A DNA stretch of 64,000 nucleotides from Modicisalibacter luteus DSM 23508 (GTDB lineage: Bacteria; Pseudomonadota; Gammaproteobacteria; Pseudomonadales; Halomonadaceae), in contig NZ_KB900005.1 in the NCBI RefSeq assembly GCF_000378505.1, forward strand, positions 3,543-67,542, written 5' to 3'. This document shows, one piece after another, positions 9,426 through 31,894 of the stretch (position 1 is its first letter; every line of letters begins with the position of its first letter). The translations under genes were made by a program, and so were the position numbers. The notes under the pieces were generated by a model. That model had not been told where the DNA came from and did no database searches. It saw only the letters and a list, made by a program, of their open reading frames with translations.

Positions 9426-9633
9426 AGAAAGACTGATGGGTGCTAATGGCACGTCCGTCACCATGCCCGTTACGGACAAGCCCCGGAAGCGACGGAACAA
9501 GCTCCGGGTGGTAAGTTTTGCTGACACCCAGAAGCCGATGGCCGAGTCAGAAGTTTTCATGAAAGCTTCGGTCCAACGTCACAAGGATACTGTGGAGGCT
9601 GTGCGTCGCCACCGTGAGGAGCTTGTAACCTGA
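9412..9633 (+). CDS. Small basic protein, paralogue of the gene at 18699
   Basis: This 73-residue protein begins at a GTG and overlaps the end of the broken upstream gene by 14 bp, just as the 18.7-kb paralogue overlaps its partner by 20 bp. The N-terminal half is basic and Pro/Arg/Lys-rich (TDKPRKRRNKLRVV). The C-terminal half is conserved between copies: AESEVFMKASVQRHKDTVEA and VRRHREEL against AEPSVFLAAAKRRHRESVAA and VRRHRAEL. It is followed by a strong terminator. Function unknown; it may bind nucleic acid or the membrane partner. It appears intact although its partner gene is broken. Confidence 0.65.
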   Translation: MRKNRERLMGANGTSVTMPVTDKPRKRRNKLRVVSFADTQKPMAESEVFMKASVQRHKDTVEAVRRHREELVT

Positions 9634-9963: not shown

Positions 9964-10390
9964 ATGACCCGCTTTTCCATAGGCCCCAGCCTGTTGTTAT
10001 GGCTAACGCTCGCCATTGTTCCCTCAGTGGCTGGCGCTGAAACCGTAGAGGAGTGGTTGGAGTCGGTTACACCATCGGAGCAATCCGCTGCCCCCCCAAT
10101 ACTGGCGGGAGCTACTTCGACGGAAGTCCCAGTGTGGTCGAGGAGCCATTTAAACCAACCGCTTGGCACGATGACGAACAGCTGTACATAGCATTCGAGA
10201 TTGCCGCGAACACTGCCTCTATCGAAAACACTTCAAGATCGCGGGGGAGGGGATAGGTAGCCTGCGCATCCCTGAGGGTATCTCATCGCACGACGAGATT
10301 TTTGGTGAAGCGGAGATCTCGCGCGAACAGGTCTTTATAGCGGCTGAAGCAGAGATCGCCGAGGCTGGGCGGTCTCAAGTTCCAAGCGCA
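9964..10390 (+). pseudogene. Frameshifted secreted-protein gene cut by an IS30 fragment
   Basis: The ATG at 9964 starts a good signal peptide: MTRFSIGPSLLLWLTLAIV followed by PSVAGA and ETVEEWLE. A frame change near 10098 continues as PPNTGGSYFDGSPSVVEEPF and DDEQLYIAFEIA, and another near 10230 continues as KIAGEGIGSLRIPEGISSHD and EIFGEAEISREQVF. The three segments have similar composition, so at least two indels have broken the gene. The 3' end runs into the IS30 remnant. Product unknown. Confidence 0.5.
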
Positions 10391-10393: not shown

Positions 10394-10965
10394 CTATTGA
10401 AGTGTGTCTGGTCCAGCGACTGATTTCTTGAAAACGTCCGCGTAAACCTCCAGCGGCGTCCGCCAATCCAATCCCTTGCGTGATCTTGTGTTCAGCGAAT
10501 CAGCAATCGCATCGAGTTCATCCTGGCTGTATACCGAGAGATCAGTCCCCTTCGGCAGGTACTGACGCAGCAGGCCGTTGGTATTCTCATTGGAGCCGCG
10601 CCGCCACGGGCTGTGCGGGTCTGCAAAATAGATCGCACTGCCGGTCCGCTGGGTAATTTCGGCGTGCTTCACCATCTCTCTGCCCTGATCGTAGGTCATG
10701 GAGAGACGCAGGGATCGCGGTACCTCATTCAGCTTGTCGCTGAACCCGGTAGCAGCGGCCGTGGCGGTAGTGCCGTCCAGCTTCACCAAGAGCACCAACC
10801 GGGTGGTGCGCTCCACCAGCGTGCCGACGGCGGATCGGTTGTTGGCGCCCACGATCAGATCACCCTCCCAGTGGCCGGGCATCAGGCGGTCCTCGATCTC
10901 GGGCGGTCGCAGGTGGATGCTGACCAGATCAGGAATCTGGCCGCGTCGATCCTTGCCACGGCTGC
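10394..10965 (-). pseudogene. IS30-family transposase, 5'-truncated
   Basis: The reading frame from about 10965 to 10394 encodes GKDRRGQIPDLVSIHLRPPE and then MPGHWEGDLIVGANNRSAVG, TYDQGREM, ADPHSPWRRGSNENTNGLLR and QYLPKGTDLS, all diagnostic of IS30 transposases. The catalytic DDE positions (GDLI Asp, TYDQG Asp, NEN Glu) are visible, but the whole N-terminal helix-turn-helix half is absent. The 5' break joins directly to a RES-domain fragment at about 10966, so the truncation probably arose through an IS-mediated deletion. Confidence 0.85.
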
Positions 10966-11127
10966 GTAGCCTTGCCTAAAGTCGAAGACTCGCATCAATG
11001 TCACTTCATAACTGACGACCGTTCCGGGGGAGCATGAGCGGCGAGAGCTGGCGATATCCTCGAAGGCCGTCTGCGCTTCACGGGAAAGATAGAGCAGGTG
11101 GTCTGATACGGCTGAATCGCCCACCAT
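10966..11127 (-). pseudogene. RES-domain toxin fragment
   Basis: LLYLSREAQTAFEDIASSR, then PGTVVSYEVTLMRVFDFRQG aligns with the intact RES toxin at 21373-21891 (ALYLALEEVTALKEYRQLS and PPGLIVSYTVNLTTVVDFRH). The sequence stops matching where the IS30 remnant begins, so only the N-terminal third of the toxin remains. It cannot be functional. Confidence 0.7.
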
Positions 11128-11267
11128 ACCTGGCCCGGTGTCAGGCTGACAGCAGGCTCAGCGAAGACTTCCCAGCCTGCACCTTTGACCAATTTCAGTG
11201 CCGAAGCCATCTGCCATACTTTGCGAGCACCTCGGTACTGTCAGACAGGACAGCACGGGCACTTGCA

Positions 11268-12302
11268 TCAAGCGGTACGGAAAGCGTCAGTGAGGTAGCG
11301 CTCATCAAGTCTCCCAGCGATTTCAGCATTGCGAGCGTCGCCACTATGTAGCAGATCTGCATAAGCGAGTAGTGGATGAACCATGCCACTCTCGGGACTC
11401 TCGTCGATCCAGAAGCGCTCCATGATCCGAAGGTTGGGCTCGACACCGGCTGGAGGCTTCCTCAAACGGTGCGCCTGCATCAGTTGGGGCAGGTTCTTTC
11501 TGGGCAGATAGAGCGTGGCGACCTGCGGTTTCAAGTGTCCGCTGTAGTAGCTGCCGGCAATCTCGCCGCCCCACGCTGCGTCCAGGCGGGCAACGCTATC
11601 ATCACCCCACCAGTCCGTGGCCTCGCTGTAGAACTCCCCGATTGCCAGCTTGGAAGCAAGTTTTTCCCCGTAGCCTACGACCCAGCGCTCCATCAGTTTT
11701 CGAGGCTCGGTGATCTTGGTGGTCTTGCGATTCCCCTTCGCAAAGGTCGCTAGGTGGCCCCCGACCTCGAGCGCCTTGAAAACGTTCTCGACGGTACCGT
11801 GGGATACCCCGGTGCGCTGGGCGATGGTGCGGATTGACGCTCCTGTCAGCTCGGGTTGGGTCAACAGGTGATAGATAACCACCAGCCCCTTGCGCTGAAA
11901 GGCTCGCTCAACCGGGTGTGATTCCTGCGCGGCCGCCGTGGCCGTCGTGCGCCGGTTACCTCGGATAAATACCTTGAGTTGGGGCTGATCAATAAAGGCA
12001 TTGCCTGCGGTATCTATGAATTGGATACCCCGTCTCTGAAGCGTCCGGGCGGCATTGGCGTTGAGATAGTCAGCGATCAGCAGTCGGTCAGGGGCGTTGG
12101 TCCATTGGTATGGAAGTGCGGCTATCTGGTGTGACACCCATCGTTTCACTTCGCCACGAAAGCGGTGCCCGTCCAGGTCAGCGAGGTAATCGTCCTGAGG
12201 GGCACCCTTCATGGGTAATCCCAGCGACGCGTTCAGTCCGGTTTCGGATTGGAAAGCGGCGATGGCCTCTTCAGCAATGTGCCAGTCGTGTGACGTTGCC
12301 AT
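11268..12302 (-). CDS. AbiEi-like (type IV antitoxin-type) winged-helix protein
   Basis: The protein of about 344 aa (start MATSHDWHIAEEA at 12302) has the pattern of the large AbiEi-like family: RGIQFIDTAGNAFIDQPQLK near residue 93, then a winged-helix region IRTIAQRTGVSHGTVENVFK, followed by LMERWVVGYGEKLASKL, AAWGGEIAGSYYSGHLKPQV and a C-terminal domain ending in LTDAF. In many genomes such proteins pair with an AbiEii nucleotidyltransferase toxin. None is encoded next to it here; the neighbour downstream is a RES fragment and a broken IS30. It may be an orphan antitoxin or a DNA-binding regulator. A longer start at 12341 is possible. Confidence 0.65.
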   Translation of the reverse strand: MATSHDWHIAEEAIAAFQSETGLNASLGLPMKGAPQDDYLADLDGHRFRGEVKRWVSHQIAALPYQWTNAPDRLLIADYLNANAARTLQRRGIQFIDTAGNAFIDQPQLKVFIRGNRRTTATAAAQESHPVERAFQRKGLVVIYHLLTQPELTGASIRTIAQRTGVSHGTVENVFKALEVGGHLATFAKGNRKTTKITEPRKLMERWVVGYGEKLASKLAIGEFYSEATDWWGDDSVARLDAAWGGEIAGSYYSGHLKPQVATLYLPRKNLPQLMQAHRLRKPPAGVEPNLRIMERFWIDESPESGMVHPLLAYADLLHSGDARNAEIAGRLDERYLTDAFRTA

Positions 12303-12712
12303 GGTGTCCAATAATTCTCTGTGTCCAATAATAATGTACATCTTGAAAAAATGGACAGCAAGGCAATATGGGATTCCTTGGCAGGTACGTGCTCAAGAAG
12401 CAAATCCAGCAAGACTGACTTGTAATCCCCGCCCGGCAAGGCTTACCACTACAGTGCTAAAATGGTTCTATTATAGAAAAGCATATATTCCATGCTGCTA
12501 CGACACTTACAAGCCCTACGCTTGCAGAGACCCTGCCGACAAGCCCTGGTAGGCACCGCATTCCTCCTTTCGGCCGTGGGGCACCCTGCCAAAGCAGATA
12601 TCAATGACTGGCAGTGCCTACCTCAGATTTGTGGACTCATCTACAGATTGGGCTGGGTTTGTCACAGCAGCCAGCGAAGCCTCGAGTGTTTTCAGCAAAA
12701 TTCCGCGAGAAC
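12303..12712. other. Intergenic stretch with a possible secreted-protein remnant
   Basis: From 12492 a plus-strand frame encodes RQALVGTAFLLSAVGHPAKA followed by DINDWQCLPQICG, which resembles a signal peptide plus the first mature residues. The similarity to a real gene ends near the IS200/IS605 left end at about 12700. I cannot name a product. Confidence 0.3.
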
Positions 12713-12732
12713 CCCCGCCCACTCGGGCGGGG
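12713..12732 (+). repeat. Left-end hairpin of the IS200/IS605-type element
   Basis: CCCCGCCC and GGGCGGGG form an 8-bp stem with an ACTC loop. The other end of the element, rebuilt by removing the IS1182 insertion, has the same stem with a GCTA loop. Subterminal hairpins of this kind are recognised by TnpA in IS200/IS605 elements. Confidence 0.6.
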
Positions 12733-12758
12733 AGGTAAGCGGGAGCCGCGCAGCGGCT

Positions 12759-12851
12759 CTATTCTGGCGTCTTCTGTCCTTGCACATAGCTCTTGAGCGT
12801 CTCGATGGTTGCCCCGCCCGCACTACAAGCAAAATACGACCGTGACCACAG
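12759..12851 (-). pseudogene. IS200/IS605 TnpA, C-terminal remnant
   Basis: The minus strand encodes LWSRSYFACSAGGATIETLK followed by SYVQGQKTPE and a stop. This is the typical C-terminus of HUH transposase TnpA (WSRSYF...Q.QKTPE). The rest of tnpA, including the HUH motif and catalytic Tyr, is missing; the fragment is fused head-on to tnpB, so one deletion removed most of tnpA and the start of tnpB. Confidence 0.8.
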
Positions 12852-13809
12852 CGCAGCGCTTTTGCTCAACCTCGGGATATCCACGACCGGGCAGGCGGAA
12901 TTTTTGAACCGCCAATTCGGCACGGTGCGTTTCTGCTACAACACCGGCCTGCGCATCATGTCTCACCGCTACAAGCGCCACGGCCAGTCGCTGAGTGCCA
13001 AACACGATATCAAGAAGCTGTTGCCGGTGGCCAAGAAGTCTCGCCAGTATGGCTGGTTACGCGACGCCGATTCGATGGCCCTCCAGCAGGCGCTCATCAA
13101 CCTCGACAAGGCGTTCCAGCGCTTCTTCGACCCCAAGCAGGCCGCCCCCGAGCCGATCCAATGCGTCGAGGGCAGCAAAATCATCGGTCTCGATATAGGA
13201 CTGTCGCACCTGGCGATTGACTCCACTGGGCGTAAGGTCGCGAATCCTCGCTTTCTCAAAAAGGCGCAGAAGAACCTCAAGCGCAAACAACAGGCGCTGT
13301 CCCGCACGAAGAAAGGCAGCGCCCGCCGAGCGAAGGCGCGACGGCTTGTCGCCAAGGCGCATGAGCGGGTCGCCAATGCCCGCAACGACTTCCAGCACAA
13401 GCTCTCTCGACAGATCGTTGACGACAACCAAGCGGTGATCGTCGAGACGCTGAAGGTCAGCAACATGATGAAGAACGCCGGCCTCGCCAAGCACATTGGC
13501 GATGCGTCCTGGCAAGCCTTGACCACCAAGCTGGACTACAAGGCCAAGGAGCAGGGCAAGCATCTGGTCAAGATCGACCCGTGGTTCGCCAGCTCCAAGA
13601 CCTGCCGTGTATGCCAGCACAAGATGGACGCCATGCCGTTGAACGTCCGGTCGTGGGAGTGCCCCGCCTGCCATACGCTCCATGACCGAGACGTCAACGA
13701 GGCGCTGAACATCAAGCATCAAGGCATTATCAAGTTGAAGGCGGAAGGGCTGTCCGTCTCTGCCCATGGAGGCTCGCGTAAACCCGGCATGTCGCCGGTT
13801 GCTGCCTGA
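12793..13809 (+). CDS. tnpB: TnpB (IS200/IS605 OrfB), internally deleted
   Basis: RuvC-type catalytic residues are visible in GLDIGLSH (Asp), VETLKVSNMM (Glu) and HDRDVNEALN (Asp), together with the zinc ribbon CRVCQ...CPACH. TnpB is an RNA-guided DNA nuclease normally of about 370-450 aa. Here the first 25 codons are antisense to the tnpA remnant, so the authentic N-terminus is lost. A further 80-100 residues are missing between ALINLDKAFQRFF and IQCVEGSKIIGLDIG, where family members carry a beta-rich region before the RuvC domain. The nuclease centre is intact on paper but guide-RNA binding is probably lost. I regard it as a decayed but still open frame. Confidence 0.85.
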   Translation: MSVSMVAPPALQAKYDRDHSAALLLNLGISTTGQAEFLNRQFGTVRFCYNTGLRIMSHRYKRHGQSLSAKHDIKKLLPVAKKSRQYGWLRDADSMALQQALINLDKAFQRFFDPKQAAPEPIQCVEGSKIIGLDIGLSHLAIDSTGRKVANPRFLKKAQKNLKRKQQALSRTKKGSARRAKARRLVAKAHERVANARNDFQHKLSRQIVDDNQAVIVETLKVSNMMKNAGLAKHIGDASWQALTTKLDYKAKEQGKHLVKIDPWFASSKTCRVCQHKMDAMPLNVRSWECPACHTLHDRDVNEALNIKHQGIIKLKAEGLSVSAHGGSRKPGMSPVAA

Positions 13810-13832
13810 GAAGTGGGAAGCCCCGCCCGCTA

Positions 13833-15539
13833 GAGGGTGTCGCGAAAGGGGTAAGGCCGTAAAATGGTTCCTCCCTTGCCCGAGAACTTACCGTGTCGAC
13901 AGCCTGCCTGCCTACGCCTGATGACAGGCAGTTCGCGCTTTTTCAGGAATCGCCTGCCTCGCCTTCTCCGTCTCCCCGCGTGACGGCAACTTCGTCAGGA
14001 CGGCGTTTCATACAGGGCGACGCCACGGCGATTTTCCTGGGCATGACACCGCTTGCAGATCATCTTCGGCAGGCAGGGGTTGATGCCCCTTTTATTGTCG
14101 CCGACCTGTTGGATGCCCAGGACTGGACGCCCTTCGAGGATCGCTATGCCGCAACAGGGCGCGCACCCTATGCGCCACGCGCAATGCTGGGACTAATTCT
14201 CTACGGGATCATGCATGGGGTCTCATCACTGCGCGCATTGGAACGGCTGGCACGCGTCGACCTGGGATGCATGTGGGTGACCGGAGGCATTGCCCCCGAT
14301 CATGCCAATATCGGGCGCTTCATCTGCCTGCATGAACAGGCCCTGGCGCAGGAATTCTTTGAAGCGTTGACACGTACCGTTCTGACCAGGACAGCGACAT
14401 CAGCCACCTGCCTGGCCGATGACGGGACCGTGATTGAAGCTGCTTGCTCTCACTATCATCTGCTCAAGGAGGAGGCGGTACGTGCCAGGGTCAGTGACGC
14501 CCGGACACACCATCAACAGGCTCCTCGGGAGCAACAGGACAAGACCCGGCAGCAGCTGGAAAGGGCGCAGGCCTGTGAGCAGGTGCTTGATGCGCGGATC
14601 GCGGCACGGCGACGATATGGCAAGCGTACCGATACGGTGCGCGTCAGCCTGACGGAGCCAGAGGCCGCCCTGCAGCGGCAGAAGCGTGGACGCGGCTTTG
14701 CGCCGGCATACACGCCCTCCGTCCTGGCCAATGAGGCACGCCTCATCGTGGCACACGCCGTGGATCCCACGAGCGAGACACGCGTGGTCGGTGAGCTGAT
14801 CGATCAGAGCGGGCGTGTGGCACCCGAGCCCCAGCGCGAGCTTCTACTGGATGCCGGCTATTTTGATGATGGGGTGATTGCCGCGACACTGGCTCGCGAT
14901 ATCAGCCTGCTTTGCCCGCCCAAGCCCAGTACCACCGATAAGGCGAATGGCCTGTACCATAAAAGCCAATTCGCTTACGACGCCGAACAGGAGGTTTACT
15001 TCTGCCCGGCAGGGCAACGGCTTCAGCGTATCAGTCGTATTCAGGCCTCGACACGCTCGCGTGAGCAGTCGGTCTATGCCTGTGATACCTGCGCGGCCTG
15101 CTCACAACGGACCGCCTGTACCCGCTCGCCCCGGGGGCGCCGAATCAAGCGTTACCCCGAAGACGAGGCCCGCCTGGCACTGCAACAGATCATGATCCAC
15201 CCGGGTGCCCAAGCGGTATTTCGGCAGCGAAAAGCCATGGTTGAGCCGGTGTTTTCCGCGCTACGTCAGCAACAGGGGCTGTCTCGCTTCCGGCGCCGAG
15301 GGCTGGCTGGCGTCAAACGCGAGTTTGCCTTGCATGCCCTGGCCTACAACCTGGCTCGCGCTGTTGCGCTGAGCCTTTACCGTCTCCTGTGGCTTCGCTG
15401 GTGGCGGTGTCTGGAGGTCTCTGGCCTGACAAGGAAAATGGTCGCCGCTGCCTGCAGGTACGGCATCGTGTCGTGCCAGCCATCGAAATCGCCGAGTCCC
15501 TGTCGATTTATGGGTCGATAAGCGATTTGCGACAGCCTC
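13833..15539 (+). mobile_element. IS1182-family insertion sequence, complete
   Basis: The 1707-bp element has imperfect terminal inverted repeats, GAGGGTGTCGC at the left and the complement of GCGACAGCCTC at the right, flanked by 4-bp direct repeats GCTA. It contains one transposase gene. It sits exactly in the loop of the tnpB element's right-end hairpin. Target duplication and intact ends suggest a fairly recent insertion compared with the decay around it. Confidence 0.85.
13893..15521 (+). CDS. IS1182-family DDE transposase
   Basis: The 542-residue protein has the N-terminal domain APYAPRAMLGLILYGIMHGV, with SSLRALERLARVDLGCMWV and the DHANIGRF segment, a catalytic Asp in CLADDGTVIEA, LLLDAGYFDDG for the second Asp region, a cysteine-bearing insertion (YACDTCAACSQRTAC), and the terminal KAMVEPVFSALRQQQGLSRF with the catalytic Glu. 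Length and order match IS1182 transposases, so the gene is probably functional. The start fits the left terminal repeat 60 bp upstream. Confidence 0.9.
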   Translation: MSTACLPTPDDRQFALFQESPASPSPSPRVTATSSGRRFIQGDATAIFLGMTPLADHLRQAGVDAPFIVADLLDAQDWTPFEDRYAATGRAPYAPRAMLGLILYGIMHGVSSLRALERLARVDLGCMWVTGGIAPDHANIGRFICLHEQALAQEFFEALTRTVLTRTATSATCLADDGTVIEAACSHYHLLKEEAVRARVSDARTHHQQAPREQQDKTRQQLERAQACEQVLDARIAARRRYGKRTDTVRVSLTEPEAALQRQKRGRGFAPAYTPSVLANEARLIVAHAVDPTSETRVVGELIDQSGRVAPEPQRELLLDAGYFDDGVIAATLARDISLLCPPKPSTTDKANGLYHKSQFAYDAEQEVYFCPAGQRLQRISRIQASTRSREQSVYACDTCAACSQRTACTRSPRGRRIKRYPEDEARLALQQIMIHPGAQAVFRQRKAMVEPVFSALRQQQGLSRFRRRGLAGVKREFALHALAYNLARAVALSLYRLLWLRWWRCLEVSGLTRKMVAAACRYGIVSCQPSKSPSPCRFMGR

Positions 15540-15552
15540 GCTAGGGCGGGGA

Positions 15553-15779
15553 GCAGTCACATCATCCTGAATGCAACGAATATTAGCACCGAACATCGTC
15601 ACCGGATTCGGTACACCACGCTGCGCCAGCTCACCTCCGGGCTGAACTACTCACGCGCACGTGACGGGATCTCCTATTTGGAAAAGGAGATCAAGAACAT
15701 GGTGAAGAGTGGTTGTCTCAGCGGCTATGAGCGCGAAGATCACTATCCCAGCGAAGAGGGAAGGGGCGTCCAGCCATGA
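15553..15779 (+). pseudogene. 3' remnant of a hypothetical gene cut by the IS200/IS605 element
   Basis: An open frame with no start downstream of the element boundary encodes ISTEHRHRIRYTTLRQLTSG, LNYSRARDGISYLEKEIKNM and VKSGCLSGYE before a stop at 15779. It overlaps the next gene by 4 bp (ATGA), as expected for the last part of an operon gene. I do not recognise the family. Confidence 0.45.
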
Positions 15780-15925
15780 CCGATGCGACGTTCACGCTTT
15801 ACCCCAGCGACACACTGGTGGCTGAGGTTAAAGCGTCCTCAAAGCGCCAAGGTCATGCTGAGCAGACACTAAAATTGTCGCGCATGTATCGCAAAGAACG
15901 CCAGATGGGACTGCCTTTGGATTAG
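15776..15925 (+). CDS. Small hypothetical protein (49 aa)
   Basis: The ATG at 15776 overlaps the stop of the upstream remnant (ATGA). The product MTDATFTLYPSDTLVAEVKA then SSKRQGHAEQTLKLSRMYRK and ERQMGLPLD is charged and soluble. Translational coupling to the truncated upstream gene supports it being a real gene that has lost part of its operon. Confidence 0.5.
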   Translation: MTDATFTLYPSDTLVAEVKASSKRQGHAEQTLKLSRMYRKERQMGLPLD

Positions 15926-15941
15926 TGTGCCCTTGGGCCGC

Positions 15942-16598
15942 TCAGTACTGCTGGGCGGTAAAAACGACCGTGCCGATGTAGCGGCAATCTTTGGTTAGGT
16001 GGATATAACGCTCGGGCCAGTCTGGATTGAGCGCCTCTAGGTAACGCCTGATGCCTGCTTCCTTGGAGCGACGCAGGACCGCGGCCGGCTCTCCGGGTAT
16101 CTGGGTGAGCACCTTCGCGTTATGTACTACCGGCACGCTGGGGTCGACGAACAGTAGGCTACCTTGGGGAAGCTGTGGCCACGACTCCGTATTCGTCAAC
16201 CGCACGACGAATACATCGGGGCCGCAGGGAATGGGACAGCCCCAATAATTGCGGTTCGTCAGGTCCAGACTGTGGTTGCTGCTATCGTTCCAGGTTGCGG
16301 CTTCGGTCCACGAAATCTCGACGGCCTGGCGAAACGGCAGGTTATCGCCAGCGTTTTGGGAAGGTGGGACAGGAGTGGGATCCTGGGCTTCTTCGTGGCC
16401 GAGCAGCAGTTGGTTGGGCGTAATGCGCAGCGCGGCGGCAAGCATGCAAAGCCGCTCATAGTTCGGGCGCTTGGCATCCGACTCCCATTGCACGATTGCA
16501 GGTCGAGACACCCCTACCTTGATGCCCAGTCTCTCCTGAGTCAGCCCCATCGACTTGCGAGCCTCACGAATACGCTTTCCCAATAGAATATTCTGCAT
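15942..16598 (-). CDS. XRE/S24-like repressor (CI/LexA type) lacking the catalytic Ser motif
   Basis: The preferred start is the ATG at 16598 (MQNILLGKRIREARKSMGLT). Residues 5-60 form a Cro/CI helix-turn-helix (LTQERLGIKVGVSRPAIVQW). The C-terminal half resembles a LexA/S24 domain: PQGSLLFVDPSVPVVHNAKV and LEALNPDWPERYI ending in YIGTVVF. The usual GDSM catalytic box is replaced by RLTNTESWPQL, so self-cleavage is doubtful. It probably represses its own or a neighbouring mobile-element gene. The reading frame stays open upstream into an RES fragment, but that extension is foreign. Confidence 0.75.
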   Translation of the reverse strand: MQNILLGKRIREARKSMGLTQERLGIKVGVSRPAIVQWESDAKRPNYERLCMLAAALRITPNQLLLGHEEAQDPTPVPPSQNAGDNLPFRQAVEISWTEAATWNDSSNHSLDLTNRNYWGCPIPCGPDVFVVRLTNTESWPQLPQGSLLFVDPSVPVVHNAKVLTQIPGEPAAVLRRSKEAGIRRYLEALNPDWPERYIHLTKDCRYIGTVVFTAQQY

Positions 16599-16689
16599 GT
16601 TTATACGTTCCGAACCTAAGCGGAGGTGAGAACACCTGTGCGCCTGGCCGCCACATCCGGCGGACGCAAACCGCACAGTCATCGGCTGA

Positions 16690-16980
16690 CGAATCAATGG
16701 TCCAGTGGGGTCAGTCGATAAGGTCAACTCGAGGACGTGGCGGATTCTGGTCCCGTCCCACTCATGCCCGAGGTGGCGACCCTGCCAAGTGGCAGACACC
16801 ACGGGCGGCCGCAGTACAGCGGCGCACTCACCGCCGGCGTGTCGCACGCTGGGGTAGACGATGCCGTCGCTGTGGCTCTCCCAGGCCCGACGCCCGAAGG
16901 CCTGGCTGGCGCTCCAGTACGATGTCGTGGGCATGTGCTGGCGCTGGTAGTGAACTGGGTGCGGGCATGGGGCATCCTCC
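16690..16980 (-). pseudogene. RES-domain toxin, C-terminal fragment
   Basis: SYWSASQAFGRRAWESHSDG, then IVYPSVRHAGGECAAVLRPP and LGHEWDGTRI are typical of the C-terminal half of RES NAD-consuming toxins, including the catalytic Ser in YPSVR. The N-terminal half is absent. The frame then runs on into the XRE repressor without a stop, giving a spurious fusion. Confidence 0.7.
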
Positions 16981-17136
16981 CTCGCTGCGAATACTGTTTT
17001 AAAGCACAGTATGCGACAAGTCTGTTTATCATCCAGAAACGTTGACCACGGAGCGATATCAGTCGCCTAGTGAACAATTCAGCGAGCCCATAGAATCGGG
17101 ACAGTCCTATTTCTTGAGACGAAAAGCAGGAGAGAT

Positions 17137-17424
17137 GTGATGCCAACACCGGAGTGGCGCTACGAAAAGGCCGAGCGGGTAGTAAAGGCCTTGTGCCGGG
17201 GGCTTGCCGAAGCGGAGTCGGAAACGCTGCAAGGTGAGCTTGCAGTCGCCCTGCATGATTCTCTGAAGCTGCTATGCGATGCGATCGCCGAAGAGACCCC
17301 ATCCCGGGGCAACGTGTGGACCCCGGCCATGGTCGACCTGTTTCGGGAACAGCCCGAGAAATGCGGCCAGTGGCTGGCGCTACTGAACGAGCCCGATTTC
17401 AAACCCGACTATCACACCCAGTAG
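17137..17424 (+). CDS. Cassette gene 1: small soluble protein (95 aa), unknown
   Basis: The product is helical and acidic, with MPTPEWRYEKAERVVKALCR near the start, then GLAEAESETLQGELAVALHD and a tail QWLALLNEPDFKPDYHTQ. It lies 13 bp upstream of the membrane/GAF-like gene with a ribosome site (GTAGGAGGTGG) between them, so the two are almost certainly co-transcribed. I do not recognise the family. No copy of it remains at the duplicated locus near 8.6 kb. Confidence 0.65.
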   Translation: MMPTPEWRYEKAERVVKALCRGLAEAESETLQGELAVALHDSLKLLCDAIAEETPSRGNVWTPAMVDLFREQPEKCGQWLALLNEPDFKPDYHTQ

Positions 17425-17437
17425 GAGGTGGTGCGAG

Positions 17438-18718
17438 ATGGGCGAGTCCTCGCGACAGGGGGAGAAGGGCTCTGCGGGCAGCGCCTGGGTCTGGGTGAAG
17501 GAAAAGTGGCGGTCGTTCGTTCGAGCGGTGGGCGGCAGCAGCCTGGCCGGCACTCTCGTTGTTGGCGGGAGTGCTGCACTGGGTGGCGCGCTGGCGCTGT
17601 TTCCCAACGACATTCGTCGTTCCCTTTTGCAGCTGTGGCGGGCAGTCACCGACCAGGATACGACCTCCCCGCTATGGCCTGCCATTTTCTTCTGTGTCTC
17701 CTTCCTTCACGTCGTAATCATCGCGTGGTTCAAGGAATTTGCACGAGCCGCTGAAGCTCGGGAACTACGCCGGGAGCTGAACGAGCAGATCGATGACCTT
17801 CGTGAGATCACGCGCACGATGCCTCCCCGGGACTACCTGGAACGGTATGGCGAGCAGTCCAGGAAAGTGTCTTTTGAGGCCCAGACGGTGATTCCGGGGA
17901 TAACGCAAGCCATGGAGCGAGGGGAGAATCTCGAAGAGTGGCGGGACACGATCAATAAAGCTGTTCGCGTCGTTCTCGACGCAATACTGAACCTGGCCAT
18001 GGTCTTTGATGCGCCACACGATTCTCGGCGCCCGGTTTACTGGGCCAGCATCTTCTGGATCAAGGCTCCCAATGATGTCGACCACGGGAGTCGTGATGCC
18101 GTCTGGGAGCATGCCTGGGAGTTGTCGCGACATGAGGATGCCGGCTCCTTTTTCTCCCGTTCTGAAGTGTTGCTGGTGCGAGACGTCAATCTGTCGACCA
18201 GTAGGTTCACTGTCGACCAGAAAGACCCTGAGCCGAGCCCGCTTCTCCCCTTGGTGCTGGGCTGGGAAGAAGCCGAAGTACCGGAAGCCCGCAATCTGCC
18301 AGGGCTGGCGCTGGCGCTCGATCGGAGTCGCTATTCGTGGATCTCGGATACGCGGATGGCCATGCCACAGCTCACTGAGTTCGGCCTCTCGGCGAGGGAA
18401 AGGGTAGGTAGCTTCTTTTCAACCAACCTGGAATATCGCAGCCTCATGTCAATGCGCCTGGAGGGGGTTAGCTCGAAAGATGCGGAAATGATGGATGTGG
18501 CTGTGCTCACGCTGCATCGAGATTCACCAGGTATCATGCGATCGCTCGAGCGGGCCGATATGTTCTACCACCAGTTGGCGCCACTGCTCCCGCGGCTGTT
18601 TGAGCTCTGTTACGCACGGCAGACGCTTGATGCGAATGCAGCTGGGGACCTGACGGTGTATACTGAGCTTACCCCCGTTCCTTCGACCAAGGAGGACAGT
18701 GATGCTGAAACGGAATGA
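17438..18718 (+). CDS. Cassette gene 2: membrane-anchored protein with GAF-like sensor domain (426 aa), unknown
   Basis: A polar N-terminus of about 33 residues is followed by two predicted membrane helices (about 38-58, SLAGTLVVGGSAALGGALAL, and about 80-103, LWPAIFFCVSFLHVVIIAWF). Next is a charged coiled-coil-like linker (ARELRRELNEQIDDLREITR), a helical region, and from about 175 an alpha/beta domain with AILNLAMVFDAPHDS, YWASIFWIKAPND, NLSTSRFTVD, LVLGWEEAEVPEARNLPGLA and a C-terminal DVAVLTLHRDSPGIM. The pattern looks like a GAF-type sensor, but no ligand-binding motif is recognisable. Upstream is a 95-aa gene and downstream a basic 71-aa gene overlapping by 20 bp. A decayed copy of genes 2 and 3 lies at 8610-9633. 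Function unknown. Confidence 0.75.
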   Translation: MGESSRQGEKGSAGSAWVWVKEKWRSFVRAVGGSSLAGTLVVGGSAALGGALALFPNDIRRSLLQLWRAVTDQDTTSPLWPAIFFCVSFLHVVIIAWFKEFARAAEARELRRELNEQIDDLREITRTMPPRDYLERYGEQSRKVSFEAQTVIPGITQAMERGENLEEWRDTINKAVRVVLDAILNLAMVFDAPHDSRRPVYWASIFWIKAPNDVDHGSRDAVWEHAWELSRHEDAGSFFSRSEVLLVRDVNLSTSRFTVDQKDPEPSPLLPLVLGWEEAEVPEARNLPGLALALDRSRYSWISDTRMAMPQLTEFGLSARERVGSFFSTNLEYRSLMSMRLEGVSSKDAEMMDVAVLTLHRDSPGIMRSLERADMFYHQLAPLLPRLFELCYARQTLDANAAGDLTVYTELTPVPSTKEDSDAETE

Positions 18719-18914
18719 TCCCCGGCGCGTGACAAGCGGCGGGAGCAAAGAGATCGCCGAACGCCGAGAACGCGTGCGGCCACGCGTTGTGACCGCCGAA
18801 GACATGCGGAAGCCGCCTGCAGAGCCGAGCGTCTTCCTGGCTGCCGCGAAGCGGCGGCATCGTGAGTCCGTTGCAGCTGTGCGGCGCCATCGAGCCGAAC
18901 TCCTCGAGGACTGA
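18699..18914 (+). CDS. Cassette gene 3: small basic protein (71 aa), unknown
   Basis: The gene starts at a GTG 20 bp inside the end of the membrane-protein gene, an arrangement kept in the duplicate at 9412. The N-terminus is Arg/Lys-rich (RRVTSGGSKEIAERRERVRP) and the C-terminus has AEPSVFLAAAKRRHRESVAA then VRRHRAELLED, conserved with the paralogue. It could bind nucleic acid or interact with the membrane partner. A strong hairpin follows. Confidence 0.7.
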   Translation: MMLKRNDPRRVTSGGSKEIAERRERVRPRVVTAEDMRKPPAEPSVFLAAAKRRHRESVAAVRRHRAELLED

Positions 18915-18962
18915 GCGCATCGGCGGTTCCGCTGCCGCCCTCAATTTCTCCATAATCCCCAG

Positions 18963-18988
18963 AAGCCACTCCCATTCAGGAGTGGCTT
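18963..18988 (+). terminator. Hairpin terminator of the three-gene cassette
   Basis: AAGCCACTCC and GGAGTGGCTT form a 10-bp perfect stem around a CATTCA-type loop, followed by TTC. The position matches the terminator after the paralogous cassette at 9640. Confidence 0.75.
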
Positions 18989-19310
18989 TCACGTATCGCG
19001 GAGGTGGAAGCCCGACCGGAACCGGGTGCAGCTCCCCTGGGTTGACCAGTCAGGCTCCGTCAGTCTCCAGCTAGGGGCAGGGCTCAGGGGGAGCCCCCTC
19101 GCCAGTTGGCCACGTGCGACAGAGCCATTGCCGTCTCCCCCTGATACTGCCAGAATTGGCTCTGGCTCTAGCAGGCGCCTCCAACCCGTCATCAGGGAAG
19201 CTGTTATCAGCGCTGCTGCAAGCAAACTCTCATCGCCGTTCATGTTGCGTTCGGGCCTGTGAGGATCGGTTGACGGGTTACGATGTGTCGCAGTGCCGTG
19301 GAGAACCAAC

Positions 19311-20651
19311 ATGCCCGACACTCGTCTAGTGCGTCCCTCTACGATCGCCAGCATCAAGCGCTTGGCCAATAGGCTCAAGCGAGAAAGTGGCATCGCCCAT
19401 CATGAGACGCTGAATCTGGCTGCACGGCAAGGCGGCTTTGCCAATTACCGCCATGCGCAGCAACAGCTAGGTGCCGTCCAGCCCCCGGGCAATACGACTT
19501 CCCGCCAAACATTCTCTCTGTATATTTCTGTTCACTGGCGGGACACACAGGGCAATCGGGGGCGCGAGACTCTCTTCATGACCTTGTCTGCCCCCTGGGA
19601 AGAATTGATTACCCGTCAGGGAATGGGCAGAGTGGGCAAGCTACGCAGCTTGCGCCAGGATGGCCCCAATCACCTTGTCACTCCGCCGTACTGGGACTCA
19701 CCGGAGTCCGCCCGTCAGCACGCCTTCAGAATCGGCCGAGTGCTGCAGTTCATCGATGCAACGCGCCTGTCCCCCTCCAGTAGCCACTCCCGAGTTTACC
19801 CAGGGGGAAGATCGAGCAACGCGATTCCGGGTAACGATCACAGCAGTGTCTGGTATCACAGGCCAAGCGGGGCTTACGTCTTCGTAGACGAGCCTTACGC
19901 AAGCCCTCTGGAGGGGCATCAAGAGGAGCGCCAGCAGTGGGCGGACAGGCATGGCTACGCCATCAAGATGCCCTCGTGGCCTGGCATACATAACCCCGAT
20001 CAATACGGTGGTACAAGGCTGTGCTTGGTCAGTGCGGCGGACAACGCAGCTTTGCTCGATGATCTGGTGAGCGCGCTCGACAGGCTCCCGCGTAATTGGT
20101 TGACGAGCTCTGGTCAGGGGGAGTCCAGCCAAAGCCTGACGAAGTTAGTGCCCCCAGAGGCAGAGCCTGGCGTTTCCAGGGAGCAAGGGGCAAAACACAC
20201 CAAGCCGGCCCGAAAGCGTCGTACCGCCAAGACAGTTGCCTATCGATCGCTTGGCGGCTCGAGCCGTCGCCCGGCTCAGCGTATGTCAATTGCGGGGCAC
20301 GGGGAAATCGGCGTGCTACTCCAGACCATTGCACGCGAGGCTTACCATCGCTGGGGCGTGGTCACGGCCGTGAACCAGGTGCGCAATGAACTCGTTGATT
20401 GGGTACAGGGGGAATATACCCAAGAGGAACTACCTCAGGACGTGTTCCAAGAGCTTTACTATGGGGGAGCGCCCCGGGATGCCCCCATCTCTCGTCGTCC
20501 AGGCATGGAGATCCGCCAGCGTTGGATTGCCGACCTGGAGCGTGCCAAGGCCGTGCTTGCCGACCACTACCCGGATTGTGCACCGGTCTCCTTTCTGATC
20601 AAGAAGCTTGATCGAGCCAAGGGCTCAGTAGAGAAGTGGAATCCCAAGTAG
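19311..20651 (+). CDS. DUF5623-like protein (446 aa)
   Basis: The ATG at 19311 (MPDTRLVRPSTIASIKRLAN) has a GGAG eight bases upstream. The N-terminal segment VRPSTIASIKRLANRLKRES, then HHETLNLAARQGGFANYRHA matches the start of a plasmid- and island-borne family that I recall as DUF5623. The middle contains EPYASPLEGHQEERQQWADR and a basic linker (KHTKPARKRRTAKTVAYRS) precedes a helical C-terminal domain. Biochemical function is not known to me. It stands alone, with a long inverted repeat immediately after the stop codon. Confidence 0.65.
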   Translation: MPDTRLVRPSTIASIKRLANRLKRESGIAHHETLNLAARQGGFANYRHAQQQLGAVQPPGNTTSRQTFSLYISVHWRDTQGNRGRETLFMTLSAPWEELITRQGMGRVGKLRSLRQDGPNHLVTPPYWDSPESARQHAFRIGRVLQFIDATRLSPSSSHSRVYPGGRSSNAIPGNDHSSVWYHRPSGAYVFVDEPYASPLEGHQEERQQWADRHGYAIKMPSWPGIHNPDQYGGTRLCLVSAADNAALLDDLVSALDRLPRNWLTSSGQGESSQSLTKLVPPEAEPGVSREQGAKHTKPARKRRTAKTVAYRSLGGSSRRPAQRMSIAGHGEIGVLLQTIAREAYHRWGVVTAVNQVRNELVDWVQGEYTQEELPQDVFQELYYGGAPRDAPISRRPGMEIRQRWIADLERAKAVLADHYPDCAPVSFLIKKLDRAKGSVEKWNPK

Positions 20652-20653
20652 GG

Positions 20654-20704
20654 GAGTCTCACGATTGAGGGCTGGCGCAACACCAGGCCCTCGATCGTGA
20701 GACT
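20654..20704 (+). terminator. Long 19-bp stem after the DUF5623 gene
   Basis: GAGTCTCACGAT at 20654-20665 and ATCGTGAGACTC at 20693-20704 are the outer arms, and the stem continues through GAGGGC / GCCCTC with a single mismatch, enclosing about 13 nt. It starts 3 bp after the stop codon. It is longer than usual terminators and lacks a clear T tract. Confidence 0.55.
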
Positions 20705-20854
20705 CACTGCCGCCTTTTGCGTGGCCGCTGGGGAAAGACAGGGGGGCGCATGCTCTGGGATGCGAACCGGGAATAGGCACAGGCGCCCCCGCTATGCGAC
20801 TGGGCTCAAAGCGAAAGCTACGGGACCAGTCCCGAAGCATCCACCGAGATGGCA

Positions 20855-21292
20855 CTACCAGCGTGCAGAACGCCGGCAAAACGCACGAATGCGCGCGGCA
20901 ACCCATGCTTCCGTAATCGTCGGCACGACGACGGTGGCACCTCGCCCGCCACCGACCCGCTCAGGCTCAGCCCACCACTGCAGCTGCTTCCGGGCCAACG
21001 ATTGACCAAACACCCGCAACTGCCATGCACGCACGTTGTCCCGCCCGGGACGTGTGTCGGAATTGCTGCGAGAAAGGGCATAGGCGGTCAGGAGCGTCAA
21101 CGCCGCCGCCCGTGCATGGCGCTTCCATCCGTTGACCATCCCGCCTCGCACCTGGGGTGAAATGCCCGTGCTCGCCCGCACAGCGTCGATTTCTTTCAGG
21201 GTTCCCCCGGCCAGTAAGTCGAGGCGCAGCCGCACGTCATCACCGCCCATGGTGATCGCCACTTCGGATGGAATAAGTGCAGCGTAGATCAT
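20855..21292 (-). CDS. Hypothetical protein (145 aa)
   Basis: The frame begins MIYAALIPSEVAITMGGDDV and includes VRLRLDLLAGGTLKEIDAVR, MVNGWKRHARAAALTLLTAY and WAEPERVGGGRGA near the end. Composition is reasonable for a soluble protein but no family is recognised. It lies 80 bp downstream of the RES toxin on the same strand, so it could be an extra member of that unit or a remnant. Confidence 0.35.
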   Translation of the reverse strand: MIYAALIPSEVAITMGGDDVRLRLDLLAGGTLKEIDAVRASTGISPQVRGGMVNGWKRHARAAALTLLTAYALSRSNSDTRPGRDNVRAWQLRVFGQSLARKQLQWWAEPERVGGGRGATVVVPTITEAWVAARIRAFCRRSARW

Positions 21293-21372
21293 CCCGCAGT
21301 TATCGGACTGGTCCTCTAGCTACTTGGCAAGCGCAGCGAATTTTCCCAGAACAATATGAAAGGTTGCCGCAG

Positions 21373-21891
21373 TTACGGCCATGAAGCTTGGTCGACAGGC
21401 AGCCGGCCGTCAGGGTCGTAGGCGTTGAGCCGATCTTGATCGCCCAGCGCGTCGGTGTAGACCACAAGGTTTACGCCGCCCGGGTTAGCGGCCGATGGAA
21501 ACAGGATTCCGCTGGCGCCTGTCTCCAAGGCTAGGTCGCCGAGCAACCAGCTGGGCGGCTCAACGCGCTCGTTAAACCACAGCCTTCGCCAGTCGCAACT
21601 CATTTCCTGCCAAATCGAATCCCAGTCAGCAGAGTATCCGTGGCGGAAGTCCACCACGGTGGTCAAGTTTACGGTGTAACTCACAATCAACCCAGGAGGC
21701 ATCAGCGTGGAGAGCTGCCGATACTCCTTCAGCGCAGTTACCTCTTCCAGCGCAAGGTAAAGGGCAGGAATGCCTATGCGATTCAGGCGCCCACCATGTT
21801 GGGCGGCGCCAGCGCCGCTGGCTGGCTCTATCGCCCAACGAGGGACATGGACACGATATGCTGATTGATCTGGCAAGTTGGTAAGGATCAT
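21373..21891 (-). CDS. RES-domain toxin (NAD+ phosphorylase-type, MbcT-like)
   Basis: The 172-residue protein is full length for this family. It shows YRVHVPRWA near the N-terminus (catalytic Arg region), LYLALEEVTALKEYRQLS (Glu), VVDFRHGYSADWDSIW, and LETGASGILFPSAANPGGVN (catalytic Ser region). Characterised RES toxins such as MbcT degrade NAD+ when not bound by their Xre-type antitoxin. The antitoxin gene is directly upstream with a 4-bp overlap. Two other RES fragments (10966-11127 and 16690-16980) are broken, so this is the only intact copy here. Confidence 0.85.
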   Translation of the reverse strand: MILTNLPDQSAYRVHVPRWAIEPASGAGAAQHGGRLNRIGIPALYLALEEVTALKEYRQLSTLMPPGLIVSYTVNLTTVVDFRHGYSADWDSIWQEMSCDWRRLWFNERVEPPSWLLGDLALETGASGILFPSAANPGGVNLVVYTDALGDQDRLNAYDPDGRLPVDQASWP

Positions 21892-22307
21892 CCGGCCGCG
21901 CCAGCGCTAAGCGATTGGACGTAGCCCAATAGGTCATCGGCTCGCCCATCACTTACCAGCTGCTCAGGTGTCTTGAAATCGAATGCGCTTATCGGCTCAT
22001 TGCGGAACCAGAACGCGGCATCCTGGAAATTGCCATTCACAGCAGCCGCGGCGCCCATGACTCGCACTGCGTCCCGTAGATAGGTCTGCAGCTTCTCGGC
22101 CCCTTGGGCACGGTTCACTGTTACGCGATGGACGTGGGCACGGGCAGCAAGCGTCTGAACGTCCATGCCCAGGGCAAGGCAAAACATCCTAGGACTGATG
22201 ATCGGGCTCTTGTCATAACGTGCGCGAGCTTTCAGATCAGATATGAACTGATCGAAGGTATCGGGAGCATCATAGTCGGACGGTTCGATGATTACTTCAG
22301 CACTCAT
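21888..22307 (-). CDS. Xre/MbcA/ParS-family antitoxin (DUF2384)
   Basis: The 139-residue protein has an N-terminal DNA-binding helical region (MFCLALGMDVQTLAARAHVH) and a C-terminal toxin-binding domain with FWFRNEPISAFDFKTPEQLV followed by SDGRADDLLGYVQSLSAGAA, which is the hallmark of the DUF2384 half. It overlaps the RES toxin gene by 4 bp (ATGA) and should both neutralise the toxin and repress the operon. Confidence 0.85.
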   Translation of the reverse strand: MSAEVIIEPSDYDAPDTFDQFISDLKARARYDKSPIISPRMFCLALGMDVQTLAARAHVHRVTVNRAQGAEKLQTYLRDAVRVMGAAAAVNGNFQDAAFWFRNEPISAFDFKTPEQLVSDGRADDLLGYVQSLSAGAAG

Positions 22308-22550
22308 AGCCTAACCTCCCTACAGGCATGCAGCGAAATTGCTACATAAATGCATCATAGCCATACAGGTAACTTACGTCCAACCCCTCATTCCTTAATG
22401 CAGCATGATCGCCTCGCGAATAGTGCCGCTTCGCTGGCCGACTTTCCGTGAACAGCGCATGGTTGCTGGTGGTAGGCTGGTTGGGAGGCCAACAGGCAAC
22501 TCTCTCAGGATCGCTCCCGATTCCCCACCAATCCTGACAGAGAGGTTTCC

Positions 22551-23229
22551 ATGACCAACCCCAGCCGCCAGGCCACATCGCTCCGACCGGGGCAGTTCCG
22601 CCACCTGATCCGCGTTGCCGGCGTCACCGGGCGTATGCCCGAGCGTGATCAGATGCTGCTCTGGCTGACCCACACCACCGGCATCCGCGTCACTGAACTG
22701 GCGTTGCTCCGTATCGATGATGTGCTGTACCCGAGCGGGGCAATCCGTGATGAAGTCTATCTGCGGGCCGAGATCACGAAAGGCTGTCGGCCGCGCAATA
22801 TCCACCTCACGCATCCGAAGTGCATCGCAGCAATCAATGCCTGGCTTGAGGTGCGTCGGTACCGGGGGTGGGGACTCTCAGGCGACAGTGCATACCGTGG
22901 CTTCCTACCTCACACCAAGCTGGTATTGACGCACAAAGGGAGAAGCTTCGAACTGGCCGTGAAGCGGCGAGAGCTTGATGCTGGCCTCAAGGAGTACCGG
23001 GCCTGTGACGCTCTCCAGCAGACCATGAGCCGCCTGTACCGCCAGGCTGGTATTCAAGCTGGGATCGAGCCACAGCGGCCGACACACGCTGGCTGCAAGG
23101 GTGCTGGCTGCCACCGGCGATGTAGAGACGGTGCAGGCCGTACTGGGCCACCAGGAGCTGGATCACACCAAGCCATACTTGACTGTCGTTCAGGAGACAA
23201 TTCGGCGGGCGTTTGAGATGGCGCTTTAG
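22551..23229 (+). pseudogene. Tyrosine recombinase/integrase with one frameshift
   Basis: The first part encodes the catalytic Arg in THTTGIRVTELALLRIDD and the beta-hairpin Lys region YLRAEITKGCRPRNIHLTHP. Near 23060-23064 an extra G shifts the frame. In the alternative frame the sequence continues GSSHSGRHTLAARVLAATGD, VETVQAVLGHQELDHTKPYL and QETIRRAFEMAL to a stop at 23229, supplying HxxR, the second His and the Tyr nucleophile. All catalytic residues are therefore present across two frames, so the inactivation is recent or a sequencing error. Without the shift it would be a compact recombinase of about 225 aa. Confidence 0.85.
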
Positions 23230-23232
23230 AAT

Positions 23233-23290
23233 GATGACTCCTTTCCATAGTCATCAGGTTGCTTTATCTTGGTGACTAGACGTGATGACT
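23233..23290 (+). promoter_or_regulatory. Operator region of the Phd/PIN toxin-antitoxin operon
   Basis: GATGACT (23233-23239) and AGTCATC (23249-23255) form an inverted repeat, followed by GGTGACT at 23271 and GATGACT again at 23284. Such clustered half-sites are typical of Phd-type autoregulation. Their position argues for a start codon downstream of 23290. Confidence 0.6.
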
Positions 23291-23296
23291 AGGGGT

Positions 23297-23539
23297 ATGA
23301 CCATGCATTCTGAAGAGGTATCAAAATCTCAGTTCAAGGCGCGGGCGCTGGAGTTCTTTCGCCAGGTTGAAGCGTCTGGCGAGGCGGTCATTGTGACTGA
23401 CAAGGGGCGCCCCACTATCGAAGTACGCCGCTATAAGGCAGATCAGCGCTCACCTCTTGAGCGACTGCGCGGCAGCGTTATCGAGCTGGCTGATCCCTTC
23501 GAGCCAGTGGGCGAGGAAGACTGGGAGGCGCTGCGTTGA
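23297..23539 (+). CDS. Phd/YefM-family antitoxin
   Basis: The ATG at 23297 (MTMHSEEVSKSQFKARALEF) gives about 80 aa. The N-terminal DNA-binding fold has VSKSQFKARALEFFRQVEAS and GEAVIVTDKGRPTIEVRRY, which is the classical Phd pattern. The C-terminal tail ADPFEPVGEEDWEAL is the likely toxin-wrapping segment. It overlaps the toxin gene by 4 bp. Confidence 0.85.
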   Translation: MTMHSEEVSKSQFKARALEFFRQVEASGEAVIVTDKGRPTIEVRRYKADQRSPLERLRGSVIELADPFEPVGEEDWEALR

Positions 23540-23937
23540 TCGTCTTGGACACCCACGCCCTGCTGTGGTGGGTCAACGGTGACTCCCAGCTCTCGCAGAG
23601 CGCCCTTGAGACTATTGAGCATGAGCTTCTAGCGGATGATGGCGAAATCCTGATATCGGCAATCTCGGCGTGGGAAATTGCGCTGCTGGTCGAGAAGGAG
23701 CGCCTCACGCTATCGATGGCCATCGACGACTGGCTGGATACCGTAGAGGAGATTGAGGGGGTCCGCATTGTAGCTGTCGACGCTGCCACGGCAGTTGAGT
23801 CAACCCGGCTCCCCGGAGAGTTCCACAAAGACCCGGCAGATCGGATGATCGTGGCATTGGCCAGGCACCACAACGCTGAGCTGATCACTGCGGACGAAAA
23901 GATTACAGCCTACCGGCACGTCAAAACGATCTGGTAG
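23536..23937 (+). CDS. PIN-domain toxin (VapC-like ribonuclease)
   Basis: The gene begins at a TTG overlapping the antitoxin stop (TTGA). PIN-domain acidic residues are present: LDTHALLWWV (Asp), ISAWEIALLVEKERL (Glu), KDPADRMIVALARHHN (Asp) and LITADEKI (Asp). The length, 133 aa, is normal. VapC-like toxins cleave RNA, often tRNA; the target here is unknown. Confidence 0.9.
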   Translation: MIVLDTHALLWWVNGDSQLSQSALETIEHELLADDGEILISAISAWEIALLVEKERLTLSMAIDDWLDTVEEIEGVRIVAVDAATAVESTRLPGEFHKDPADRMIVALARHHNAELITADEKITAYRHVKTIW

Positions 23938-31051: not shown

Positions 31052-31067
31052 GATATGGAGATATGAG

Positions 31068-31493: not shown

Positions 31494-31509
31494 ACCATTG
31501 GCAACACTG

Positions 31510-31850: not shown

Positions 31851-31894
31851 CTCGGTTTCGGAGAAACGACACCAAAACACGGCAGGAGAGCCTT

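Follow-up and report, generated by a model that had tools for sequence, protein, structure and literature searches.

The GAF domain is counted among the nucleotide-binding domains of conflict systems in PMC7159879, and the same source gives SLATT proteins, which carry two transmembrane helices, as predicted pore formers that respond to nucleotide signals (Burroughs et al., 2015, as cited in PMC7159879). Here we describe a locus that appears to combine a two-helix membrane hairpin and a GAF fold in one protein. It lies in a stretch of 64,000 nucleotides from Modicisalibacter luteus DSM 23508 (genome of 4.53 Mb; contig NZ_KB900005.1, positions 3,543 to 67,542), which we call the window and whose own numbering is used below, and it consists of three open reading frames (ORFs) at 17140-18914, named genes 1, 2 and 3 in the order of transcription. 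Judged from gene order and homology, the conserved unit is the pair of gene 2 and gene 3, not the three genes together. We tentatively read this pair as a mobile two-gene effector/partner system that resembles toxin/antitoxin or abortive-infection systems, a reading that we consider plausible without calling it probable. The gene order, the modelled GAF fold, the membrane hairpin, the sporadic distribution on mobile elements and the retention of the small gene in the absence of gene 2 all speak for it.

The three ORFs claimed in a first-pass annotation of the window are all present, and their coordinates could be verified. All are on the forward strand: gene 1 (17140-17424, from an ATG at 17140, with a GTG at 17137 in the mechanical ORF list) encodes an acidic protein of 94 residues, gene 2 (17438-18718) a membrane protein of 426 residues, as described by ORF, hydropathy and AlphaFold model, and gene 3 (18702-18914, from an ATG at 18702) a basic protein of 70 residues with a net charge of +8 and a C-terminal helix that ends in VRRHRAELLED. 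The 13-nt gap between genes 1 and 2 does contain a ribosome site, since GAGGTGG directly follows the stop codon of gene 1. The overlap of 20 nt that had been given for genes 2 and 3 applies only from a GTG at 18699; from the ATG at 18702 it is 17 nt. As for the single terminator that had been placed at the end of the cassette, there is a strong hairpin 3' of gene 3 (18962-18989, forward strand; -31.8 kcal/mol over 86 nt, folding z -6.0, equalled by none of 200 shuffles), but its T tail is short and a consensus terminator scan listed nothing at this place, so that its status as a terminator is likely, yet unproven.

The same gene order had been proposed as worth looking for elsewhere, and a central gene with a small gene behind it is indeed found again, on plasmids, in one phage and on further contigs. 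Each of the 16 intact loci compared has a small ORF whose start lies between -23 and +64 nt from the gene 2 stop codon, an arrangement of two adjacent genes with one small partner that is also found in type II toxin-antitoxin systems. These loci represent 12 distinct ones, because the three copies from V. cholerae and V. parahaemolyticus, the two from V. penaeicida and V. rotiferianus and the two from Marinobacter were counted as one each; the plasmid match NZ_CP053812 was left out of the comparison. Homology between the small proteins was found in four separate groups. In the Halomonas family, the small genes of the window, of Halomonas LBP4 and of G479 overlap gene 2 by 14-23 nt and encode homologous proteins. 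Vibrio and Shewanella share a protein of 50 residues (60-68% identity), V. penaeicida and an IMG/VR contig one of 27 to 40 residues (E 3e-4), and Marinobacter and G086 yet another (46% identity over 39 residues). The description of the last protein as short and basic with a conserved VRRHRxEL end has also held up, as the motif is kept as VRRHREEL in a second copy within the window and, in this form or in variants (VRCHRKAL, VGRRRKEL), in ten further relatives from the family. The model of gene 3, built on an alignment of three rows, has a disordered N-terminus and a single helix at residues 42-69. Gene 3 itself found no match in plasmids.

Gene 1 does not share this history. That the three genes form one unit had been the central claim, and it was rejected after a comparison of gene 1, together with two Pseudomonas relatives, to 30 other loci in which the pair, remnants of it or a small gene alone are present: there was no match (best E 0.17), and the relatives live on plasmids without the pair. 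These relatives, with 48-60% identity, are located on four Pseudomonas megaplasmids, including pQBR57 (L042:5001-5285, L043:4001-4285, L044:5001-5285 and L045:4001-4276), about 12 bp behind hypothetical genes that differ between plasmid groups; the plasmid searches found no gene 2 match in Pseudomonas plasmids. Among 151 family genomes, gene 1 occurs in its own genome and as a weak partial match in G464 (31% over 52 residues, E 6e-4). G001 retains a 107-bp relic of the gene 1/gene 2 junction, 93% identical and including the first 24 codons of gene 2, on a contig other than that of its orphan small gene and next to the same stretch with RES, integrase and Phd-PIN genes as in the window. The junction was thus once present in another species of the genus as well. 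On these comparisons, gene 1 is best regarded as a passenger ahead of the pair that belongs to a separate family of plasmid cargo.

The product of gene 2 has two membrane helices according to hydropathy (residues 36-54 and 79-97). The AlphaFold model, based on an alignment of seven rows, has a mean predicted local distance difference test score (pLDDT) of 66.7, with block values of 33-68 up to residue 130 and of 52-89 over residues 131-400. It contains a long helix (residues 80-127) that continues the second membrane helix, followed by a domain of GAF topology (residues 131-402, 17828-18643 on the forward strand). Two membrane helices, a coiled coil and a sensor-like domain had been suggested for this protein, and hydropathy and model agree with all three, the coiled coil appearing as the long helix, which was read from the model and not obtained with a coiled-coil program. 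SLATT proteins likewise have a helical extension behind their hairpin.

With VIA-align, residues 131-402 can be superimposed on 3ci6, the GAF domain of a phosphotransferase system (PTS) protein, with a Z score of 13.0 and a root-mean-square deviation of 3.1 over 161 of 166 residues. All 50 rows listed are GAF, phytochrome, PDE6, fRMsr and similar entries, including a few with titles that lack a domain name (e.g. 3p01, 3w2z, 4mcw), which we take to be GAF domains. The assignment of the fold depends on VIA-align and topology, since Foldseek with the gene 2 model gave no match at E 0.001; a library of viral structures returned one weak match, to a membrane protein of a Gordonia phage (E 0.004). 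The Pfam gathering scores for GAF were not reached by any family member, the best values being E 0.0035 for PF01590 (one of 11 members) and 0.015 for PF13185 (two of 11). Taken together, the model indicates that the C-terminal part of gene 2 is a GAF-fold domain, in the sense of a shared fold without a GAF assignment at the level of Pfam. A simple NKFDE-type pattern is missing from all 11 members, and no cysteine column is invariant across the family alignment. As Pfam and NCBIfam scans recognised no kinase, cyclase or other enzymatic output and no domain that would bind DNA, the only output evident for gene 2 is its membrane hairpin or a partner bound to it.

None of the three proteins had been assigned to a family at first, and this has not changed. 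Pfam, PHROGs and PADLOC 2.0.0 contain nothing above cut-off for the three window proteins, Pfam and NCBIfam nothing for 11 gene 2 homologues (the NCBIfam scan covered these and not genes 1 and 3), and PADLOC, which was run on the window proteins, matched none of the three even at E 1. The Pfam, PADLOC and NCBIfam scans gave no match to a toxin-antitoxin family, and sequence-only searches of the PDB gave matches at chance level (E 0.29; the best, at E 0.1, to helices of G-alpha and 14-3-3 proteins). Clear homology of the central protein to a housekeeping family would have pointed elsewhere; no such homologue of gene 2 appeared in Pfam, PHROGs, PADLOC or NCBIfam, and since no model exceeded its cut-off for the genes or the homologues, this explanation was rejected. 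A search of the literature on GAF, defence, toxin-antitoxin and SLATT at the level of titles and abstracts found no published description of the pair.

Homologues of gene 2, with 19-38% identity, occur in Halomonas, Marinobacter, Shewanella, Vibrio, Polaromonas and Janthinobacterium. G479 (38%) and Halomonas LBP4 (36%) are followed by Marinobacter (24%) and the Vibrio plasmids (22-23%); further homologues are found in Shewanella SR44-3, a second Marinobacter, one IMG/VR contig, plasmids of Polaromonas and Janthinobacterium, and Vibrio phage 10N.261.55.B9_PE003, and fragments in G328 and G086. Since E values among the compared loci reach 1e-81 and 2e-69, gene 2 is not a chance ORF. Five of the 12 distinct intact loci are on plasmids and one is in the Vibrio phage. 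The family looks rare, judging by the counts: gene 2 was detected in three of 97 relatives (one being the 24-residue relic of G001), three of 275 family genomes, three of 293 order genomes, two of 369 class genomes and three of 398 phylum genomes, samples that overlap and include the genome of the window itself. Two gene 2 queries matched seven and nine of 72,556 plasmid records, and none and one of 50,697 phages. In the scans of viral contigs, queries A2 and A5 led to one contig, and P0002, the phage protein and the Janthinobacterium protein to none. A scan of genome contigs with one narrow pattern gave four loci and is not a census. At the DNA level, a search with 15942-19600 found no match in plasmids.

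The small gene is also present without gene 2. Among 275 family genomes, the small protein finds matches in 19 at E 0.01 and in 12 at E 1e-5 or better; the seven genomes with weaker matches (E 1e-5 to 0.01) are excluded from the orphan counts. Three of the 12 hold gene 2, and nine do not (G547, G558, G552, G492, G521, G530, G538, G024 and G001). Around these nine orphans, tblastn with four gene 2 proteins detected no gene 2 remnants (we took E 0.11 and 0.41 as noise). The frame is open in eight of the nine, G001 having an internal stop, and most of the open orphans have a good ribosome site, with weak ones in G547 and G552. Ratios of nonsynonymous to synonymous substitution rates (dN/dS, NG86) are 0.08, 0.11 and 0.18 in the group of G547, G558 and G552, 0.29 for G530/G024 and 0.64 for G492/G521. 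They cover seven of the eight open orphans (G538 is excluded, and G001 was excluded from the small-protein alignment); dS could not be used for the pairs LBP4/G547 and w1/w2, and saturation affects several of the values, those near 2. By this measure, the orphan small genes appear to be mostly under purifying selection. Those of G547, G558 and G552 resemble the small gene of LBP4 (58-72%), and those of G492 and G521 the one of G479 (48-51%); this closeness to different paired genes fits repeated loss of gene 2. A tree of the 12 small proteins has no well-supported branch and carries no weight.

Where gene 2 is broken, the small gene can likewise remain open. This is the case in G086 (GTG start, no good ribosome site) and on a V. 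fluvialis plasmid, whose gene 2 carries insertions of IS3 and IS110. The window provides a third example, not listed in the first-pass annotation, a decayed second copy of gene 2 (8620-9335, forward strand) with residues 172-326 and 323-401 in two frames and 52-58% identity to gene 2, whose N-terminal half was not found in this interval. It is accompanied by an open small gene (9412-9633, forward strand; 65 residues from an ATG at 9436) that ends in VRRHREELVT and is 50% identical to gene 3 over 48 residues. Tandem repeats of about 55 bp (7972-8338) immediately precede the decayed copy. That the small gene persists where the effector is gone suggests a partner that is protective or independent, and it speaks against a toxic one.

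Upstream of the cassette, 128 bp before the ATG of gene 1, there is a perfect LexA-type palindrome, TACTGT-N8-ACAGTA (TACTGTTTTAAAGCACAGTA, 16992-17011, without strand), which is a possible SOS operator. The genome has four such palindromes, compared to about 0.5 expected from base composition, and the reversed control pattern occurs at one place; CTGT-N8-ACAG within 400 bp upstream was reached in one of 300 base shuffles. Another of the four is located 15 bp before a radical-SAM gene that we take to be of the PA0069 type, which is known to be under LexA control. The lexA gene of this genome is itself preceded, at 42 nt from its ATG, by a box with one mismatch, which fits this type of LexA box. 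LBP4 has a perfect CTGT-N8-ACAG between umuD and gene 2, which may serve umuD, and L024 has a box with one mismatch, as good as those in 26 of 300 shuffles. Ten of 13 scanned operons are without a box with zero or one mismatch, and SOS control was not found as a conserved trait of the pair. It is therefore possible for the window cassette, but as a local feature and not one of the whole family.

In our proposed mechanism, gene 2 would be a GAF sensor that is joined by the long helix to a two-helix membrane hairpin, and gene 3 or its equivalent, a small, mostly basic, helical partner translated from the same message, would silence it in the manner of an antitoxin or of an immunity protein. When a phage infects, DNA is damaged or the element is lost, a small-molecule ligand of the GAF domain would change, and gene 2, thereby released or activated, would disturb the inner membrane and stop growth. 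In this genome, the SOS response may additionally induce the unit. Toxicity, inhibition by the partner, topology, ligand and a role in defence are all points that we infer. A bolder version, which we think rather unlikely to be right as a whole, is that the pair confers immunity or addiction: the GAF domain would sense a small molecule linked to infection or damage and gate the hairpin, the tiny helical partner would restrain it, and the orphans would have spread through the Halomonas family as anti-addiction genes, protecting against incoming elements with the pair.

Several observations weigh against an effector/partner system. The starts of the small ORFs were picked by eye from ORF lists and annotation and the chance frequency of such starts was not computed, so that the weight of the pairing rests on homology, and the small proteins of Polaromonas, Janthinobacterium and the phage have no detected kinship to any other; a visual likeness between those of Polaromonas and Janthinobacterium was dropped after BLAST found nothing. 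The small proteins differ greatly between groups, from 27 to 128 residues and from -15 to +10 in net charge, the phage protein being strongly acidic and those of Polaromonas and Marinobacter near neutral. The membrane part varies too, since at the hydropathy threshold used 12 of 16 homologues have two helices, three have one (V. campbellii, V. penaeicida and V. rotiferianus) and one has three (Polaromonas). In G328, two decayed gene 2 copies are without a recognisable small gene. No gene for a signal-making enzyme (nucleotide-signal enzyme, cyclase or CD-NTase) was seen beside the pair in the neighbours read, part of which were scanned, and most loci had no recognised gene of a known defence system among the neighbours that were scanned or read. 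Finally, retention of the orphans would be equally expected if the small gene had a function of its own.

Such a function is at the centre of the strongest alternative, a non-toxic membrane signalling pair in which the GAF domain senses a metabolite or nucleotide and signals through the long helix to a small basic adaptor or to a nucleic-acid-binding regulator of plasmid or host genes. GAF domains are mostly sensors, most of the small proteins are basic, the model of gene 3 has one long helix, and the selection on most orphans, together with their mostly good ribosome sites, is what a free-standing regulator would show. However, Pfam, PHROGs and PADLOC recognised no DNA-binding family in the small protein, the V. 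penaeicida version with its 27 residues is short for a regulator, and no target gene recurs beside the pair in the neighbours read. We regard this explanation as possible, if somewhat doubtful.

The surroundings of the pair bear on both a defence role and on a role in the biology of its carriers. Neighbouring known defence genes, which the first-pass annotation had named as a possible support, are found at some loci, but at most loci none was recognised. Within some 6 kb of the window cassette there are AbiEi and Phd-PIN genes, an in-frame fusion of an XRE-S24 gene with a RES fragment, an integrase-like ORF, and a RES gene together with the gene next to it; elsewhere, V. penaeicida and V. rotiferianus have Ppl in divergent orientation to gene 2, and putAbiC is 1.6 kb upstream of gene 2 in Janthinobacterium. 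The defence association is only a lead, because the frequency of these neighbours has no control and the scan covered part of the neighbours. A DinG helicase gene is upstream of gene 2 in V. campbellii, and UmuC- or S24-type genes are near the pair in LBP4, V. campbellii and Polaromonas. In G479, an insert of about 1.9 kb with the pair is flanked by perfect 111-bp direct repeats (L019:8041-8151 and 10056-10166), one of them within the 3' part of a Lin0512 gene, and no integrase-sized ORF is listed inside; from its sequence, the insert looks like a minimal mobile cassette.

A plasmid or prophage function, in which the membrane protein blocks the entry or establishment of related elements or helps maintain its own and the small protein tunes it or protects against it, would agree with the five plasmid loci, some of them near replication or partition genes, and with the position of the phage copy near the end of a phage with HP1-type tail genes. 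A sensor domain would be unusual for exclusion proteins, however, and the genes on either side of the Shewanella and G479 copies look chromosomal (pntB-like, Lin0512). We consider this function improbable. Still less probable is a reversal of roles, in which the small peptide is a membrane- or nucleic-acid-binding toxin and the membrane GAF protein its sensor-antitoxin: most small proteins are short and basic, and the toxins of some toxin-antitoxin types are of this size, but a free toxin should hardly be kept under purifying selection, and eight genomes have an open small gene and no gene 2, as three loci have an open one next to a broken gene 2. That the cassette is mere debris of a mobile region, with chance neighbours that have no joint function, is hardly credible and largely refuted, for in spite of broken and transposase genes in the window region and one decayed copy, the same order is kept at 12 distinct loci with central proteins whose identity to gene 2 does not exceed 38% once the window is left aside, small genes are homologous in four groups, and most small-gene pairs are under purifying selection.

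Three further regions of the window were noted on the side. The cassette is located in a decayed island rich in toxin-antitoxin genes (10394-23937) with transposase-like ORFs, part of which is common to G001 (84-94% DNA identity). Judged by reading, 30906-48292 contains arsenic-resistance genes (GAPDH/ArsJ-like) with a phosphonate C-P lyase operon behind them. The third region, 55820-57853, encodes a phytochrome-type PAS-GAF-PHY protein with a GGDEF (diguanylate cyclase) domain.

If the effector/partner reading is right, a GAF-gated membrane effector with a dedicated small partner would join the bacterial conflict repertoire, and it would be one that travels on plasmids, including large IncC-typed Vibrio plasmids. 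The orphan partners, present in nine genomes compared to three with the pair, would be a natural case of anti-addiction, and the ligand of the GAF domain would reveal the signal that is sensed.

Among the known systems, Pycsar and CBASS effectors are similar in that they unite a membrane hairpin with a ligand-binding domain. They differ from the locus by their cyclase or CD-NTase gene, which was not found beside the pair in the neighbours read, and PADLOC was empty for the three proteins. The signalling GAF domains of phytochromes, PDE6, 3ci6 and fRMsr share the fold of gene 2, whereas the gene 2 family is without their NKFDE-type pattern, an invariant cysteine and a recognised kinase, cyclase or DNA-binding output. 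The likeness to SLATT proteins consists of the two membrane helices, the occurrence in mobile conflict operons and the predicted signal-responsive pore (PMC7159879). Gene 2 differs from them in its fusion to a GAF domain and in the lack of a nucleotide-making enzyme seen beside the pair. No SLATT Pfam model matched the window proteins or 11 gene 2 members at E 1 or less, and the comparison is therefore one of analogy, not of Pfam membership. Compared to type II toxin-antitoxin and abortive-infection systems, the larger product here is a membrane protein with a GAF domain, its mostly basic partner is encoded by the second gene, and no toxin-antitoxin family was matched; the pair nevertheless resembles these systems in the association of a larger gene with a small partner, in the retention of the orphan partner, and in its mobile distribution.

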